NCBI RefSeq assembly: GCF_027359575.1
Contig: NZ_CP114784.1
Coordinates: 1,301,819-1,365,818 of the forward strand
Length of the DNA: 64,000 bases
Direction: 5' to 3'
DNA from: Prochlorococcus marinus str. MIT 0917
GTDB lineage: Bacteria > Cyanobacteriota > Cyanobacteriia > PCC-6307 > Cyanobiaceae
In this document: in pieces, positions 13,925 through 27,973 of the stretch
Layout of the letters: each line of letters starts with the position of its first letter
Position numbering within the stretch: the stretch's first letter is position 1
Notes under the pieces: model-generated
What the model was told of the DNA's origin: nothing
Seen by the model: the letters and a program-made list of their open reading frames with translations, nothing else
Database searches by the model: none
Translations under genes and position numbers: made by a program

Positions 13925-15610
13925 TCATGCAGCTTTATGTTCCAGCAAACTCTCCGCATAAGCATTAGCTTCTACGATTTCACCACCAGCCAATAGAGCC
14001 AATTCCCTTTTCCGGTCTGCGATTTCCTTTAAATTAATAACAATAGACTTTGTAGCACCAGCGATAACACTCTTTTTTAAAACAAAATGATTATCAGCAA
14101 ATGCTGCAATTAAAGGTTGATGCGTAACGCAAAAAACTTGCTGATGAATTGACAATTCGTGAAGTAAATTAGCTACGTAACTACTGACTGATCCGCTAAC
14201 ACCTAAGTCGATTTCGTCAAAAATCAACAGATTAGATTGATTAAATGTAGAAAAAATTGACTTTATTGCCAAAAGAACTCTAGATTTCTCTCCCCCAGAG
14301 GCTCTTTCTGCAAGAGGTGCTAAAGGCAGACCTGGATTCGCTGAAAACATAAAATTAACTTTATCAAACCCATTCATTGTTGGTTCAGATTCTTCAAAAA
14401 CAACTTTAAAACGAGCATTGGGAATACCTAAATTTTTTAAACTCATAATCAATTTATCTTCAAATTCTAAAGCAATATTTTTTCTTATTTTCGATAAATC
14501 TTTATTAGAGTTATCTCTTATGCGTCTTTTTTTATCTTCAAATAAAGCCATTTCATTTATATTATTAAAAGAATTTTGAGAAGATAAACAATTCATTAAT
14601 TCATTTTTATAATTAATCAGATCTTGTAAATTTCTTTGATATTTTTTTTGATAAAATTTCAAATTAGATAATCTAACTTGTAAATCATTTAAAAAAGATG
14701 GATCTATATCTAATGTTTTTTCATAATCATTTATCTGATAAATTAAGTCATTAAGATTATTAATTATTTTATAAAAATTATCATAAGTCGGTTCCAAAGA
14801 AGAGTCCATTTGTGACAATATTTTTAATTCATTCATACAAAAATTAAAATGGTCTAGCACTGTTGGATACTCATCTAAACTTTCATTTAAACGAATTAAT
14901 AAAGATTTAACTCCTTCTTTTAATCTTAAAACATTTGATAAACGATTTTGAGCAGTTTCTAGCTTAATTTGCTCGTCTGGGTCTTCTAATTCTAATTTAT
15001 TCAAATCTTGGTATGTATATTCCATTTCCTCAAACTCTTTTTTAGAATCTAAGATTCTATGTCGAGCTTTCTCTAATTTAATATTAGATTCATGCCATAT
15101 CTTCCAATCTTCCTTAACTTTAGATATAGATGATTGAATTTTTTTTAAACCTAATGAATCTAATAAGTTTAATTGATACAATGAATCATTTAAAAGATAA
15201 GTATCTCCTTGTAGTGTGAAATCAAATAAATTGGATCTCAATTCTGATATTTGATCTCTATTAACTAATACACCATTAATTCTAAATCTAGATTTATATT
15301 TATTTTCTTTTAAACGCCATTCCCTAGTCACAATTAATTCTTCCTCAATATCAAATTCGTTATTAATTAGCCAATTTTTCGTATTTTGCGACACAGAAAA
15401 AACACCCTCGATTGATGAAAAATCAGATCCTTTAGATACCAATCGATCATCATGAAAACTTTTTTTATTCGCCAATAAAGCATTCAACGTATCAATAAAT
15501 ATTGATTTACCTGAACCAGTTTGCCCTGTAAAAACAGTAAATCCTTTATCAAAGTCGATCTCTAAATTCCCAAATAAAGCTATATTTAGAAAACGAAGGC
15601 TGGTAAGCAT
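13925..15610 (-). CDS. recN: DNA repair protein RecN
   Basis: An SMC-like ATPase that acts on double-strand breaks. The 561-residue protein has Walker A GQTGSGKS (29-36), long central coiled-coil segments, the ABC signature ASGGEKSRVLLAIK, Walker B LLIFDEIDLGVSG and a switch histidine in VTHQP. All catalytic landmarks are intact. It lies 44 bases upstream of uvrA in the same orientation and is divergent from the ABC1 kinase gene. Confidence 0.95.
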   Translation of the reverse strand: MLTSLRFLNIALFGNLEIDFDKGFTVFTGQTGSGKSIFIDTLNALLANKKSFHDDRLVSKGSDFSSIEGVFSVSQNTKNWLINNEFDIEEELIVTREWRLKENKYKSRFRINGVLVNRDQISELRSNLFDFTLQGDTYLLNDSLYQLNLLDSLGLKKIQSSISKVKEDWKIWHESNIKLEKARHRILDSKKEFEEMEYTYQDLNKLELEDPDEQIKLETAQNRLSNVLRLKEGVKSLLIRLNESLDEYPTVLDHFNFCMNELKILSQMDSSLEPTYDNFYKIINNLNDLIYQINDYEKTLDIDPSFLNDLQVRLSNLKFYQKKYQRNLQDLINYKNELMNCLSSQNSFNNINEMALFEDKKRRIRDNSNKDLSKIRKNIALEFEDKLIMSLKNLGIPNARFKVVFEESEPTMNGFDKVNFMFSANPGLPLAPLAERASGGEKSRVLLAIKSIFSTFNQSNLLIFDEIDLGVSGSVSSYVANLLHELSIHQQVFCVTHQPLIAAFADNHFVLKKSVIAGATKSIVINLKEIADRKRELALLAGGEIVEANAYAESLLEHKAA

Positions 15611-18133: not shown

Positions 18134-19240
18134 GTGGCTCTCTCTAAAAAATTAAAACAACTTTTTTCTTCTGCCCCCCAAAAAAATAACTGGGATGGAC
18201 TAATAGAAGCATACAAACCTTGGTTACCAATTACAAAAAAAACACCAATCATTACTTTAAAAGAAGGTGCAACTCCTCTTATAGAAGTCAAATCAATAAG
18301 TAATCGAATTGGAAAAGGAGTAAAAGTATATGTTAAATATGACGGTCTAAATCCAACAGGATCATTCAAAGATAGAGGAATGACAATGGCAATCAGCAAA
18401 GCTAAAGAAGCTGGTTGCGAAGCGGTAATTTGCGCAAGCACAGGTAATACCTCAGCCTCAGCTGCTGCTTATGCAAGCAAAGGAGGGATGAAATCATTTG
18501 TTATTATTCCTGATGGATATGTAGCTCAAGGTAAATTAGCTCAGGCTTTAGTCTATGGAGCAGAAGTGTTAGCTATAAAAGGAAACTTTGATAAAGCATT
18601 AGACATTGTTAGAGAATTGTCTAATAAATATCCAATAACATTAGTTAACTCAGTTAACCCTTATAGATTACAAGGACAAAAAACAGCGGCTTTTGAGATA
18701 ATAGAAAATCTTGGAAATGCTCCTGACTGGCTATGCATTCCAATGGGAAATGCAGGAAATATAAGTGCTTACTGGATGGGATTTCAAGAATTTTTTCAAG
18801 CTAAAAAATCAAAAAAACTTCCTCGAATGATGGGTTTTCAAGCAAGTGGTTCTGCTCCCTTAGTCGAGGGGAAAAGCATTAGCAATCCAGAAACAATTGC
18901 TACTGCGATAAGAATTGGTAATCCTGTTAATAAAGAAAAAGCTCTCTTAGCAAAAGAATCGAGTAATGGTAAGTTTTCTTCCGTAACAGATTCCGAAATA
19001 ATCGAAGCATATAAAGTTCTTGGTAGAGAAGAAGGTATTTTTTGTGAACCTGCTAGCGCAGCTTCCGTTGCTGGTTTATTAAAGATTAAAAATGAGGTAC
19101 CAAAAAATTCCACTATTGTTTGTGTCCTAACTGGAAATGGTTTAAAAGATCCTGATTGCGCAATTAAAAATAACGAATCAGTTTTTCATACAGGTATAGA
19201 TCCAGAATTAACTTCAATAACAAAAGTAATGGGGTTTTAA
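18134..19240 (+). CDS. thrC: Threonine synthase
   Basis: A PLP enzyme converting O-phosphohomoserine to threonine. The 368-residue protein has the PLP lysine in [11 protein letters not shown] (73-83, Lys79), the phosphate loop [10 protein letters not shown] and a C-terminal [11 protein letters not shown] segment. The start is a GTG at 18134. It is the last gene before the replication origin, as in Prochlorococcus genomes as I recall them. Confidence 0.96.
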
Positions 19241-19616
19241 AGACATAAAAAATATCCAAAAAAAAAACTGTCTGTTAATTTCGATTTTTTATCTTTGAGT
19301 TTATTGTGGAAAAAAGATGAAAAGTCTTCTTATATTAAATATCTTTTTTCCACAGACCGTTGTATTCGTGGATAAGACTATTTTTATCCACGATAAGAAA
19401 AACTTTTCCACACCTGAAAAATCTGATATAGCTGTTCTCTACTATGTTTTTTGAATTAACCACAAAAACCACAATAACTACTACTACTAATTCAATTTCA
19501 TATCAAGAATAAAGAATTAGAATAGAAATAAAAAATTTTGTTTTTTTTAACGGTATTGCTTTTTGGAAATAGCTATGAAATTCTTATATGAATGGATTTT
19601 TATTTGAAATAACAGA
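19241..19616. other. oriC: Chromosomal replication origin (oriC) with DnaA-box cluster
   Basis: A 376-base non-coding gap between thrC and dnaN. DnaA boxes are visible at 19305-19313 (TGTGGAAAA, reverse), 19346-19354 (TTTTCCACA), 19367-19375 (CGTGGATAA, reverse), 19384-19392 (TTATCCACG) and 19404-19412 (TTTTCCACA). A weaker TTAACCACA lies at 19456-19464, with an AAAACCACA just after it at 19465-19473. An AT-rich stretch at about 19495-19600 could be the unwinding element. The position next to dnaN is classical for bacterial origins. Confidence 0.88.
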
Positions 19617-20777
19617 ATGAAATTAAATTGCTCTCAATCTGAATTAAATACTGCTCTTCAGTTAGTAAGCAGAGCAGTTTCTCACCGACCGACACACCCT
19701 GTCTTAGCTAATGTTTTACTAGCAGCTGATGAAGTAACTGGAAAACTTCGTTTGACTGGTTTTGATTTGAGTTTAGGTATACAAACTTCAATATCAGCTT
19801 CTATAGAAAGTAGTGGTGCAATAACTCTTCCTGCTAAGTTGTTTGGTGAAATAGTTGCAAAATTGTCTAATGATTCTCCCTTAACTTTGACTTCTGATGA
19901 AAGTAGTCAACAAGTTGAATTAACTAGTAAAAGTGGTACATATCAAGTAAGAGGAATGCTTGCTGATGATTTTCCAGATTTACCTTTAGTACAAAGTGGT
20001 ACTTCACTTAAGTTAAATCCATTCTTATTATCTAATGCAATTAAATCGACTTTATTTGCAAGTAGTACGGATGATGCTAAACAATTATTAACAGGTGTTA
20101 ATCTTACATTTAATGGTTATGGAATTGAATCTGCAGCTACTGATGGACATAGATTAGCTGTTCTGAATTTAAACAATATTTTATCTGATTCTAAAGATCT
20201 AGACGTTTCTGATAAGATTGATAAGTTTTCAATTACTTTACCTTCAAAATCTTTAAGAGAAGTTGAAAAATTTTTAAGTACTTGTGATATTAGTCAGCCA
20301 ATTAATTTTTTTATTGATAAAGGACAAGTAGTTTTTATCTCAGCTGATGAAATTATAACTATAAGAGCTTTAGAAGGCTCTTATCCAAATTATTCTCAAT
20401 TATTGCCTGATACATTTGAAAACATATTAGAATTCGATAGAAAAGAATTTATTGCTTCATTAGAAAGAATAGCTGTTTTAGCTGATCAACATAATAACGT
20501 TATTAAAGTAACTACTGATAACTCAGCAAATTTAATTAAAATTAGTACTGATGCTCAAGATATCGGCACAGGTAACGAATCTCTTCCTGTTTCATTTATA
20601 GGTGAACCATTTCAAATAGCATTTAATGTGAGGTATTTATTAGATGGACTTAAAGTTATAGATTCAAATTTTATTAAATTAAGTTGTAATTCTCCTACTA
20701 CACCTGCAGTGTTCTCACCTGTTAATAGTGATGTTAATTTTACTTATTTAGTTATGCCTATACAGATACGCAATTAA
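19617..20777 (+). CDS. dnaN: DNA polymerase III beta subunit (sliding clamp)
   Basis: The ring-shaped processivity clamp of the replicative polymerase. The 386-residue protein starts MKLNCSQSELNTALQLVSRAVSHRPTHPVLANVLL and ends YLVMPIQIRN, the usual beta-clamp C-terminal MP(I/M)(Q/R) signature. It shows the three-domain length. It is the first gene right of oriC and heads a run dnaN, PRC-barrel gene, purL, purF on one strand. Confidence 0.97.
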   Translation: MKLNCSQSELNTALQLVSRAVSHRPTHPVLANVLLAADEVTGKLRLTGFDLSLGIQTSISASIESSGAITLPAKLFGEIVAKLSNDSPLTLTSDESSQQVELTSKSGTYQVRGMLADDFPDLPLVQSGTSLKLNPFLLSNAIKSTLFASSTDDAKQLLTGVNLTFNGYGIESAATDGHRLAVLNLNNILSDSKDLDVSDKIDKFSITLPSKSLREVEKFLSTCDISQPINFFIDKGQVVFISADEIITIRALEGSYPNYSQLLPDTFENILEFDRKEFIASLERIAVLADQHNNVIKVTTDNSANLIKISTDAQDIGTGNESLPVSFIGEPFQIAFNVRYLLDGLKVIDSNFIKLSCNSPTTPAVFSPVNSDVNFTYLVMPIQIRN

Positions 20778-21565: not shown

Positions 21566-23977
21566 ATGTCATCTACTTCCAAAAACAATGATTTTAATCA
21601 AATCATTGATTCACCAAAATTTTCTGTTGAATATGATGTTCTATCTTCTCTTAAACAAGAAGGATTAAAAAAATCCGATTATGTAGAAATTTGTCGAAGA
21701 CTAGATCGGGCGCCAAATAGAAATGAATTAGGAATGTTTGGTGTTATGTGGTCTGAACATTGCTGCTATCGAAATTCTCGCCCTTTACTTAAAAATTTTC
21801 CTACAACAGGTAATCGAATTCTTGTAGGACCAGGAGAAAATGCAGGCGTTGTAGATATTGGTTTAGGTCAAAAATTAGTTTTTAAAATTGAGAGTCATAA
21901 TCATCCGTCAGCAGTGGAGCCTTTTCAAGGGGCAGCAACAGGAGTAGGTGGAATACTGAGAGATATTTTTACCATGGGAGCTAGACCAATAGCATTATTA
22001 AATGCTTTAAGATTTGGTCCTTTGGAGGATGAAAAAAATATTAGTTTATTAGAAGGTGTTGTTGCAGGTATTTCACATTATGGAAATTGTGTAGGTGTTC
22101 CCACTGTTGGAGGTGAAGTTGGCTTCGATAGTAGTTATTCAGGTAATCCTTTAGTTAATGCAATGGCATTGGGTTTGATGGAAACGGAGGAAATAGTTTG
22201 TTCAGGTGCTAGTGGAATCGATTTTCCAGTTCTTTATGTAGGAAATACAACTGGTAGAGATGGCATGGGAGGAGCAAGTTTTGCAAGTTCTGAACTTTCT
22301 AAAACTTCAATAGATGATCGACCCGCAGTACAAGTCGGTGATCCTTTTCTTGAAAAAGGATTAATAGAAGCTTGTTTAGAGGCTTTTAAAACAGGTCATG
22401 TAATTGCTGCACAGGATATGGGAGCAGCAGGTTTAACTTGTAGTTGTTCTGAAATGGCTTCAAAAGGTGAGGTAGGCATTGAATTGAATCTTGATTTAGT
22501 TCCAGCGAGAGAAAAGGAAATGACTGCATATGAATTCTTGTTGTCAGAATCACAAGAAAGAATGTTATTCGTTGTGAAACCTGGTTCAGAAGAAGAATTG
22601 AGACAATTATTTATGAGATGGGGATTATATGTTGAAGTTGTAGGAAAGGTTTTAAAACAAAAAGTTGTTAAAGTCATCCATAAAGGACAAGTTGTAGCAA
22701 ACTTACCAGCATCTGCACTTGCTGATGATACACCTATAGAAGAGCATCTATTAAATAAGTCAACGCCTGAATATTTACAAGAACATTGGAAATGGACAGA
22801 AGATTTATTACCTGAAAATTTAAATAATGGAATTATTAATATAAAAAATAATCTATTTATTAGTTGGAATAATGTTTTATTAAATTTATTAAATACGCCA
22901 TCAATAGCCTCAAAAAATTGGATATATAAACAATATGATTATCAAATACAATCTAATACAGTTGTTGCTCCTGGAGAAGCTGATGCAGCTGTTATAAGGA
23001 TTCGTTCTCAAAATGATTTTATAACTTCATCAAATCAAGATAGAGGAATAGCGTCAGTTGTTGATTGCAACGATAGATGGGTTTATTTAGATCCTCAACG
23101 AGGAAGTATGTCAGCCGTTGCAGAAGCGGCAAGGAATTTAAGTTGTGTTGGAGCTGAACCTATAGCAATTACAAATAATTTAAATTTTTCTTCTCCAGAT
23201 GAACCAGTAGGTTTTTGGCAATTATCAATGTCATGTCAAGGTATAACTAATGCTTGTACAATATTGAATACTCCAGTCACAGGAGGCAATGTGTCTTTAT
23301 ATAATGATACTAAATTGCCTAATAATACAGTTATTCCAATACATCCAACGCCTGTAATTGGGATGGTTGGATTAATAGAAGATATTAATAAAATTTGTAA
23401 AAAATCTTGGGTTAAAGATGGAGATCAAATATGGATGATTGGATTACCTTTAGAAGCTAATATAAAAAAAGATAAAAGAATATCATTAGCCGCTTCATCT
23501 TTTTTAGAGTATATTCATGGACTAAAAACGGGAAGACCGCCCGAAATAGATTTATATTTAGAAAAAGAAGTTCAGTCATTTTTAAGAAAAATAATAAACA
23601 AAGGTATTATCAACTCAGCTCATGATTTAGGTGATGGTGGTTTAGCAGTAGCTTTAGCTGATTGTTGTATTTCTTCTGGATATGGAGCAAATATTGTGCT
23701 ACCTCCAAGCAAATCAAGATTAGATAGGCTTCTGTTTGCTGAAGGCGGGCCAAGAGTTTTAGTTAGTTGCTCAAGCAATCAAAGCTTAGAATTAAAAAAA
23801 TACTATGAAATTATTTCTATAGAAGAACCTAATGTTTTTTCAATATCTCATTTAGGAACTGTAAATAATCAAAAAAAACTATTAGTTTCTCAAGCTAATA
23901 ATTCCATTATAGATGTTGACATTTTAGATTTGAAAGATACATATAAAGAATGTATCTATAAAAAAATATCTAAATAA
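21566..23977 (+). CDS. purL: Phosphoribosylformylglycinamidine synthase subunit PurL
   Basis: Fourth step of purine synthesis, converting FGAR to FGAM with PurS and PurQ. The 803-residue length marks the small, multi-subunit type. Seen are [20 protein letters not shown] near the N-terminus, [33 protein letters not shown] and a second AIRS-like half with [13 protein letters not shown] and [14 protein letters not shown]. It starts three bases after the PRC-barrel gene and is followed by purF. Confidence 0.96.
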
Positions 23978-25493: not shown

Positions 25494-27973
25494 TTTTTTT
25501 CTGGGATTATCATTGAAAATATAGAAGTTATAAATTCATTATCGTTTAACTCTATATTTAATTTTTTTTCTTTTTTATATGGACTACTATCAATTTGATC
25601 GGTTTTTAATTTTTCATATCTCTCTTTATCCGTTTTAATATAAACATATTTATTATTTATAAAACAATTAATTACTCTGTCTTTGATTTTTTTATTTTCT
25701 TTAAAATGTATTCCCATAGTTCCTAATTCTCCACGTTTAGATTCTTTTATTTCTTTCGTAGAATGTTTTATGAAAGAACCTTTATTAGTTACTAAAATTA
25801 AATCTTTATCATGTTTTTCTTCAAAACTTAAAGCTTCAATTATATTTTCACCTGGGAATAATTTTATTATATTTGTTCCTTGAGCTAATTTGCCCATAAA
25901 TGGGAAGTTATTTTCTGTTATTTTAATTTTAATGATTCTACCTATATCACTAACTATATACAAATAGTTATTCTCTTTACAAAGAATACAAGTTTTAAGT
26001 TTTATACTGTCTTTTAATTTTAAAATTGTTGTTGATCTATTAGAAATATCTTTAATCTCATTTATGGAAATTCTTTTAAACTTCCCATCACTACTTATTA
26101 ATCCTAAACTTATATCTTTTACTTCTATTAATGGAATAAGATTTATTATTTTATCATTTTCTAAACCTGCAGGTAAAAATTGTTCTATAGGGCCAGGTTT
26201 TTGTCCAGCAAATTCCCACTTAAGAAGGCCAACCTTACCTTCTTGACTGACAGCTAATATTTTTGGTTCATCTTTAATGGGCCAAATTAGCTTCGTAGGT
26301 AGAATATCTTTTCTATTTTGATCACTATCTTTTAATTTTAATTTTTTTATTGTTATTGAAGGGATTATTTTTATTTCATTATTTGATTGAATAATAATTT
26401 CAGAATCTGTTGATAATTCTTTTAAAGCATTTATTCTTTGAAGTTCTTTATTTGGTCTCTGATTTGCCATTCTTTCAGCAATAAGAGCATCTCCACCTTC
26501 TATTAATTTGGTTCTTCTTGGACTACCAAATCTTTTTTTAAGTTCTTTCATCTCTTTAATCATCACTTTCATTAATTCTTTTTTATCGTTAATAATTAAC
26601 TCGAGCTCTATTCTCTTACTTTTTAAATCTTTTATTTCATTTTTTAGTGAATCTTTTTCCAGACTCGTAATTTTTTTTAAAGGCATACCTAGTATCCCAT
26701 CAGCTTGTCTTTCATTTATCTTTAAGTTAATAATTAAATTATTTCTTGCTTCAGCTGTATCTTTAGATTTTTCTATTAAATCAATTATTTCTCGGAGATT
26801 ATTTGTGGCTTGGATCAGAGCTTCAACTATCTCTTGTCTATTTTTAATATTTTTTAGCAAATAATTACTTCTTAGTAAAATAGTATTTTCTCTAAACTCT
26901 AAGAAATTATCTAATAATTTTCTTAGTGTAAGTTGTACTGGTTGGCCATTGACCAATGCAAGTAAAATGGCACCAAAATTATTTTGTAATGCAGTTTTTT
27001 GATACAAAAAATCTAGAATTCTTTTTGGATCAGAATCTCTTTTAACTTCAACAAGAATTCGCATTCCATCTCGATCACTTTCATCTCTAATGTCTGCTAT
27101 TCCCGAAACTTTACCATTATTTACAAGATCAGCTAATTTTTCAATCCAACCAGCTTTGTTTAATTGATACGGTAGTTCGGAAATAATAATTACACTTCTT
27201 TTGTGTTTACCTTTACCAGGATTAATTTCTTCAATGTGAGCTATTCCTCTCATAGTTATACTTCCTCTCCCTTTTGTATATGTTTCTTTGATTCCATGAC
27301 TTATTAAGATTTCACCTCCCGTTGGAAAGTCTGGTCCAGGTATGAGTTCTAATAATTTTTCTTCATTTAATGAGGGTTTCTTTATTATTGCTATTAAAGC
27401 CTCGACTACTTCATTTAAATTATGTGGTGGAATACTTGTTGCCATCCCAACGGCAATTCCTGCACTTCCATTTAAGATTAGGAAAGGTAGTTGAGCTGGT
27501 AAGACATCTGGTTCCTGCTGTGAGCCATCAAAATTTGGTGAGAAATCTACAGTTTCTTGATCTATTTCGCTTAAAATTGCATCGTTAGATATCGGTGCTA
27601 GTCGAGTTTCTGTATATCTCATTGCAGCTGGAGGATCATCATCAATTGATCCAAAGTTTCCATGGCCATCAAGAATTGGGTATCTTGAATTAAAAAGCTG
27701 AACTTGTCTTACAAGTGCATCGTAAACAGCTTGATCTCCATGCGGATGATATTTGCCAAGAACATCGCCTACAACACGAGCACATTTTCTATAAGGCCTA
27801 TCGGGTGTAAGTCCTAATTCGTGCATCGCAAAAAGAATTCTTCTTTGCACTGGTTTCAAACCATCTCTTGCGTCTGGCAATGCTCTTCCAACGATTACGC
27901 TCATTGCGTACTCGAGATAAGAACGCTGCATTTCTTGATGCAACGATATGGGTTTCAGGCGTTCTTTGGCCAT
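25490..27973 (-). CDS. gyrA: DNA gyrase/topoisomerase IV subunit A
   Basis: The DNA-breaking subunit of a type IIA topoisomerase. The 827-residue protein contains QRSYLEYAM (16-24), [22 protein letters not shown] (103-124) with catalytic Tyr120, and a C-terminal beta-pinwheel region that is Lys/Ile-rich. Gyrase versus topo IV cannot be decided from this chain alone; its place near the origin is normal for Prochlorococcus. The pinwheel half looks far more AT-biased than the breakage-reunion half. Confidence 0.92.

Follow-up and report, generated by a model that had tools for sequence, protein, structure and literature searches.

The oriC of cyanobacteria adjoins dnaN in most of the species listed in the accessible text of PMC4674748, which gives TTTTCCACA as the consensus of their DnaA boxes. 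For Prochlorococcus, the available part of PMC2836286 describes origins flanked 5' by threonine synthase and 3' by DNA polymerase beta, with DnaA boxes nearby and a GC skew, and the thrC/dnaN location of the origin in this genus is already published there. DnaA itself is dispensable in some cyanobacteria, according to the accessible text of PMC7198777. With regard to duplex opening, the Bacillus subtilis-type BUS is composed of tandem DnaA boxes, the upstream one being nearer the consensus, a short spacer, at least three 3'-GAT-5' triplets (the DnaA-trio), and AT-rich DNA beyond (PMC8287927). The associated search rule, as given in the available part of that paper, asks for a box with three or more trios no further than 16 bp away, and for at most two and at most four mismatches in the boxes. 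In vitro, S. elongatus DnaA opens a scaffold carrying its own box and trio, in a box- and trio-dependent manner (PMC8287927).

The gap between thrC and dnaN analysed here is very probably an origin of an ordinary, known bacterial type, to which our sequence comparisons add base-resolved detail, namely, near-fixed spacing, a BUS module, and clade-specific weak boxes. Like the oriC of Synechococcus elongatus PCC 7942, Anabaena 7120, and Cyanothece 51142, it adjoins dnaN and harbours the box TTTTCCACA; unlike them, it has thrC on its left and an inverted pair of TTATCCAC boxes, and per-site geometry is given here only, in comparison with the accessible texts of PMC4674748 and PMC7198777. It shares flanks, DnaA boxes and GC skew with the Prochlorococcus origins predicted in the available part of PMC2836286, and box sequences, spacing and trio are added here. 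It resembles the Bacillus subtilis-type BUS in its tandem boxes, short spacer, triplets and AT-rich DNA, and the 13 bp from first box to trio are the most common spacer for BUS (PMC8287927). In contrast to that system, both tandem boxes are weak here, with one to three mismatches to TTWTCCACA in the first (B1) and mostly three in the second (B2) among 22 sequences, and five strong boxes lie at least 43 bp upstream at near-fixed distances. No description of box spacing in Prochlorococcus or cyanobacterial origins was found among the literature matches listed (titles, openings of abstracts, and text passages).

The thrC–dnaN gap and its strand composition

The intergenic space between thrC and dnaN covers exactly positions 19241–19616 of the window, i.e., the whole stretch of 64,000 nucleotides analysed, with the thrC stop at 19240 and the dnaN start at 19617 (ORF positions). 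Identities given below are to the window, in 22 sequences taken as the genus, which comprise the window and 21 loci from a dnaN search with DnaN at least 85% identical.

18134–19240, + strand: thrC (threonine synthase), left neighbour; NCBIfam TIGR00260, 4.2e-99, above cut-off
19267–19283, strand not given: conserved block ACTGTCTGTTAATTTCG, left of R1; identity 0.87
19305–19313, - strand: DnaA box R1, TTTTCCACA; identity 0.965
19346–19354, + strand: DnaA box R2, TTTTCCACA; identity 0.995
19367–19375, - strand: DnaA box R3, TTATCCACG, left arm of the inverted pair; identity 0.83
19384–19392, + strand: DnaA box R4, TTATCCACG, right arm of the inverted pair; identity 0.83
19404–19412, + strand: DnaA box R5, TTTTCCACA; identity 0.97
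19548–19590, + strand: conserved block before dnaN, possibly the dnaN promoter; identity 0.93, sigma-70 consensus scan negative
19617–20777, + strand: dnaN (DNA polymerase III beta), right neighbour; NCBIfam TIGR00663, 2.9e-97, above cut-off

The five strong boxes reported in the first-pass annotation all lie where stated and span 108 bases, and the TTATCCACG pair indeed forms an inverted repeat with 8 bases between its arms. Box number was rejected as an informative character, exact TTWTCCACA being about as frequent in the 1,924,674-bp genome as its reversed control (44 vs 42). Within the window, TTWTCCACR has 6 sites against a chance mean of 2.53, a number reached by 5 of 100 shuffles, and five of the six sit in the gap, so the count is ordinary and the clustering unusual. 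Among the 44 genome-wide sites, the sole three lying within 110 bases of each other are also those of the gap, a DnaA box cluster beyond chance. Two other explanations of the gap were rejected: a sigma-70 promoter, with three promoter-like sites for 2.6 expected and none in the conserved block preceding dnaN, and an intrinsic terminator, with no terminator found. At the position of ACTGTCTGTTAATTTCG (19267–19283), some distant relatives carry a DnaA-box-like stretch on the - strand, as read by eye.

The genome encodes a DciA-family helicase loader and a single dnaA, located about 604 kb from the gap when the single contig is taken as a circle (TIGR00362, 2.7e-156, above cut-off). No consensus DnaA box was found near dnaA (G000:C1:1-600, L002), and since the nearest exact ones lie about 25 kb and about 91 kb away, the sequence gives no sign of DnaA autoregulation through such a box.

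Strand composition was sampled in 46 blocks (40 stretches of 10 kb and six window blocks), representing 24% of the genome. Right of the gap, 22 of 24 blocks show a positive T-A skew; left of it, 19 of 22 show a negative one, a contrast that none of 2000 permutations reached. The cumulative T-A maximum is close to the antipode (358.9 kb), in the interval from block centre 293001 to 341001. The GC skew has the expected sign in 17 of 24 blocks on the right and 14 of 22 on the left (20 of 2000 permutations reach this contrast); its best two-arm split is found near 1.24–1.25 Mb (0.0453 vs 0.0406 at the gap), and its cumulative maximum lies away from the point opposite the gap, between centres 581001 and 629001. 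The cumulative minimum, whose location had been suggested as a check at first pass, lies for both T-A and G-C between centres 1316819 and 1326819, bracketing the gap (1321198). GC skew alone was rejected as a locator, the eight tied best splits printed being 69–83 kb off, as were the cumulative minima internal to the window (GC at 15500, T-A at 25500). The strand-composition switch seen in this 24% of the genome is thus clear for T-A, and weak and partly at odds for GC; composition supports the origin, with T-A skew carrying most weight.

The boxes could instead form a control region through which DnaA regulates dnaN and thrC, with replication starting elsewhere or at many places in a Synechocystis-like manner. 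A conserved block does precede dnaN, and the GC skew is weak, but the T-A skew switches sign at the gap and near the opposite point. A trio next to DnaA boxes is not known to have a promoter role. DnaA-independent multi-origin replication is known in cyanobacteria, but multi-origin species tend to have irregular skew, with listed exceptions (accessible text of PMC7198777). We regard such a control region as a very improbable explanation.

Weak tandem boxes and a DnaA-trio beside dnaN

To the right of the strong boxes, the gap harbours the following features (identities to the window in the same 22 sequences).

19456–19464, + strand: weak DnaA box B1, TTAACCACA (BUS box, trio-distal); identity 0.90
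19465–19473, + strand: weak DnaA box B2, AAAACCACA (BUS box, trio-proximal), abutting B1; identity 0.93
19478–19489, - strand: DnaA-trio, CTACTACTACTA on the + strand and four 3'-GAT-5' triplets on the - strand; identity 0.94
19491–19550, strand not given: AT-rich, the probable unwinding region, with the least stable duplex of the gap

The order is TTAACCACA-AAAACCACA-ATAA-CTACTACTACTA-ATTC, with a 4-base spacer and four CTA triplets on the + strand. This candidate opening module, made of B1-B2, the trio and the least stable DNA of the gap, had been overlooked at first pass; the two weaker boxes mentioned then without positions can be taken as TTAACCACA and AAAACCACA. The AT-rich region proposed near dnaN was borne out, the 50-mers starting at 19481, 19491, and 19501 being among the 1.1–2.4% least stable in the window, though the least stable 50-mer of the whole window is at 22815, outside the gap. 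The gap contains the genome's single copy of the exact 13-mer ACTACTACTACTA; written backwards, the same letters occur five times.

The four CTA triplets lie 13 bp from B1 and 4 bp from B2, and, counted by eye, B1 and B2 carry two and four mismatches to TTTTCCACA (one and three to TTATCCACA). By these counts, B1-B2 and the trio constitute a predicted BUS under the published search rule. Binding of B2 by DnaA appears doubtful because it shows three mismatches to TTWTCCACA in 21 of the 22 genus sequences; B1 shows one to three.

The trio was further surveyed in loci chosen by dnaN so as to avoid motif-based selection. A dnaN-protein search returned 53 loci, of which 42 were usable, nine non-cyanobacterial loci, one truncated at 75 bp, and a duplicate being left out. 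CTWCTAC is present at most 300 bp upstream of dnaN in 41 of these 42 cyanobacterial loci, 118–158 bp before the ATG, as against 0 for the reversed motif, 0 and 0 for two shuffled ones, and 1 for the reverse complement. The strict pattern (two abutting boxes, spacer, CTACTAC) is absent in 12 of the 42, including freshwater forms with one clear box.

In other genera, the counterpart of B1-B2 has the form TTTTCCACA/GTTTCCACA. Position 4 of B1 is never T in 24 genus sequences (20 A, 4 C), compared with T in 55 of 58 others, and B2 almost always reads (A/G)AAACCACA in the genus, with A at position 4 in 22 of 24 vs T in 50 of 58 others; the change in the window's clade is from T to A/C before CCACA. 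The DnaN tree places the B1 change on a single branch, shared by L063, L064, and the genus (24 rows, support 100/100, midpoint root); L118, outside the tree, likewise has no T. The NTTTCCACA form is usual, as read by eye, among the matches of a class-wide scan with the BUS pattern, which matched 59 of 97 class genomes, its reversed control also matching some large genomes. In five sequences of genus g18 (L126–L130), a C-to-A change gives many outer boxes the form TTTTCAACA or TATTCAACA, and the trio-side boxes remain TTCCACA-like, a change opposite to that of the window's clade.

Altered DnaA specificity was rejected as the main reading of the trio-side changes, R1, R2, and R5 staying at or near TTTTCCACA. 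As these outer boxes match TTWTCCACA in the same genus genomes (0 mismatches in 18, 21, and 17 of 22, respectively), the sequence preference of DnaA is probably unchanged in the clade. The simplest inference would be a weakening of the trio-side boxes, which would now depend on the array handing DnaA over to them.

Conservation and spacing of the box array

Alignment of the gap among relatives, the other check suggested at first pass, revealed conserved boxes (0.83–0.995 identity in the 22 genus sequences), with 0.40–0.68 identity to the window for the spacers between them. A mask covering boxes and trio has 0.927 identity to the window, a value reached by none of 375 mask shifts (largest 0.912, mean 0.769); the largest shift is high because other conserved blocks exist in the gap. 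The distances from R2 to R3 (12), R3 to R4 (8), B1 to B2 (0), and B2 to the trio (4) are the same in 22 of 22, those from R4 to R5 (11) and R5 to B1 (43) in 21 of 22, and R1-R2 ranges from 31 to 33; the stretch from trio to ATG takes six lengths between 123 and 128. In the window, start-to-start distances from R1 through the trio-side boxes are 41, 21, 17, 20, 52, and 9. In an alignment-free set of 24 sequences (21 dnaN-search loci or the window, and three G loci that have the BUS pattern and come from genomes labelled with the genus), boxes with at most two mismatches occupy exact offsets of 52, 110, 89, and 72 bp upstream of B1 in 23, 22, 22, and 21 sequences, respectively, compared with at most 17% at any offset in shuffled sequence.

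The comparison was extended to 58 sequences of other genera found by dnaN or by the BUS pattern, the latter fixing the trio core by construction; duplicates were removed, and seven of 30 loci without a downstream dnaN were dropped as chance matches. An R5-like box starts 51–55 bp before B1 in 46 of the 57 sequences with enough upstream DNA, and among these 46, R4, R3, R2, and R1 are found within one base of the window offsets in 28, 24, 20, and 27, for 0–8 in controls when slid and 0–5 with strands flipped. The 43 nt left of B1 average 33% pairwise identity in other genera, and about half of the sequences keep each outer box in place. Spacing thus appears to be kept more than sequence, with near-complete retention in the genus and partial retention in the family. 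Such fixed spacing might reflect common ancestry rather than selection on distances, since the 22 sequences are close relatives and each outer box retains its offset in only about half of the sequences from other genera. This is nevertheless unlikely: the spacers drifted to 40–68% identity with hardly any change in length, compared with the six trio-ATG lengths, and other genera repeat the array offsets despite the 33% identity left of B1.

Two records in these sets deserve mention. The single-cell contig QCHR01000019.1 carries the dnaN/oriC region twice in opposite orientation (L051/L052; G284 C19:5675 and 13489), probably an amplification chimera, and was given one count only. The record CALPNT020000155.1 (L075), titled as a Bifidobacterium breve MAG, contains a cyanobacterial dnaN and origin, and is a mislabelled record or a mixed bin.

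The inverted TTATCCACG pair had been put forward as a loading platform. Its 8-bp spacing is invariant (22 of 22), but R3 and R4 are the least conserved boxes (0.83 vs 0.965–0.995), and the tandem B1-B2 pair beside the trio seems the better candidate for the start of opening. One could still conceive that the origin is real and that its working platform consists of R3-R4 and the AT-rich DNA, B1-B2 and the trio being relics or a dnaN regulatory site, all the more as B1-B2 deviate from the box consensus in this clade. We find this improbable, given that B1-B2 and the trio (0.90–0.94) are better conserved than R3-R4, that 41 of 42 loci retain the trio, and that a similar module functions in vitro for S. 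elongatus (PMC8287927).

The replication origin read at first pass is supported by the skew, by the clustering of the boxes, by conservation among relatives, by the DnaA-trio module, and by the thrC/dnaN location already published, and 19241–19616 is very probably the chromosomal origin. We consider it highly probable that the gap is a DnaA-dependent oriC, in which the outer array delivers DnaA to B1-B2 and the trio before opening and helicase loading. DnaA would bind R1–R5, and this array, with its near-fixed spacings, would deliver it to the weak tandem B1-B2, the dependence of which on the array is presumed. From there, a DnaA filament would run onto the TAG repeats of the - strand (the DnaA-trio) and open the AT-rich DNA between trio and dnaN, where the helicase may be loaded, with the DciA-family protein as candidate loader.

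DnaA boxes upstream of DUF2811 and what the findings mean

Outside the window, two facing DnaA boxes separated by 35 bp are present at G000:C1:936248-936300 (L166 1249-1301; L172). The corresponding TTTTCCACA-N-TGTGGAAAA pattern was found in 26 of 41 genus genomes (gap of 35 in every case, with 22–50 allowed), 43 of 151 family genomes (35 or 36 in every case, with 32–38 allowed), and 22 of 97 class genomes (35–37), the reversed control giving 0 in each case; most searched genomes outside the genus are without this exact convergent form. A further box-like site, read by eye, lies on the - strand 2 bp past the pair, and pairwise identity of the spacer averages 31% in the family set. The pair is adjoined by a DUF2811 gene (PF10929) in 31 of 32 genus and family loci and 10 of 13 loci of other families, and DUF1818 stands on the opposite side in 31 of the 32. 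In five genomes, the pair lies at 19.0–20.9% of the contig from oriC, on one arm in four and on the other in one, a constancy that synteny alone may explain.

DUF2811 is present in 96 of 97 Cyanobacteriia genomes; among 14 control genomes, it was found in S. elongatus only, being absent from those of E. coli and B. subtilis. Exact TTWTCCACA occurs at most 900 bp upstream of DUF2811 in 29 of the 30 loci with the best E-values (71 boxes; 0 for the motif controls), and in none of these 30 within 900 bp downstream. A second set of 40 loci, hand-picked down the same list with one per genome and scanned on the upstream side, gave 37 with boxes (97 boxes; controls 3, 0, 0), one of the three misses having just 280 bp of upstream DNA. 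Overall, consensus boxes precede DUF2811 in 66 of the 70 cyanobacterial loci examined (70 of 96 genomes). Neighbouring boxes of the second set follow one another at 21–22 bp in the same direction in 35 of 60 steps. The genome under study has three DUF2811 loci, all with boxes at most 750 bp upstream, which was matched by none of 200,000 random placements (post hoc test):

C1:936248-936300: DUF2811 locus with the convergent box pair
C1:522803-523903 (L245): DUF2811 locus
C1:91215-91928 (L244): DUF2811 locus

DUF2811 is a small cyanobacterial protein whose sequence may be of ribbon-helix-helix type. A Pfam scan gave no ribbon-helix-helix match, and a sequence search among solved structures no match; the predicted fold comprises helices 10–22, 28–42, and 48–58 at low confidence (mean pLDDT 62.3). 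DUF2811 proteins are also encoded on two virus-like contigs of IMG/VR, L286 (3028-3219) and L287 (2971-3237), possibly phage-borne copies of the cyanobacterial protein, and no exact DnaA box was found near them in the contig pieces examined. DUF2811 is unmentioned in the main text of PMC7198777 and PMC6478999.

In sequence terms, the boxes upstream of DUF2811 look like a conserved DnaA target, belonging either to a DnaA-controlled gene or to a site that titrates or switches DnaA, as datA and DARS do in E. coli. The convergent pair at 35–37 bp and its third box-like site, seen by eye, might recall the opposed boxes plus further box of those E. coli elements, whose arrangement is described in the accessible texts of PMC8682772 and PMC4585315, and the site is not assigned to this class. 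More tentatively, as a possibility short of probable, cyanobacteria might have two ancient and separate DnaA landing sites, oriC and the cluster upstream of DUF2811. DUF2811 would then be a DnaA-controlled regulator feeding back on initiation, or the cluster a titration or switching site, and the trio-side oriC boxes of this clade would have been weakened, with opening through hand-over from the spacing-locked array.

The DUF2811 link is a more novel lead than the origin detail; if true, it would mean that cyanobacteria possess a conserved DnaA target. For Prochlorococcus, the base-resolved map with its near-fixed distances makes the start of replication directly testable, and the clade-specific rewriting of the trio-side boxes provides a test case for an origin running on weak landing boxes.
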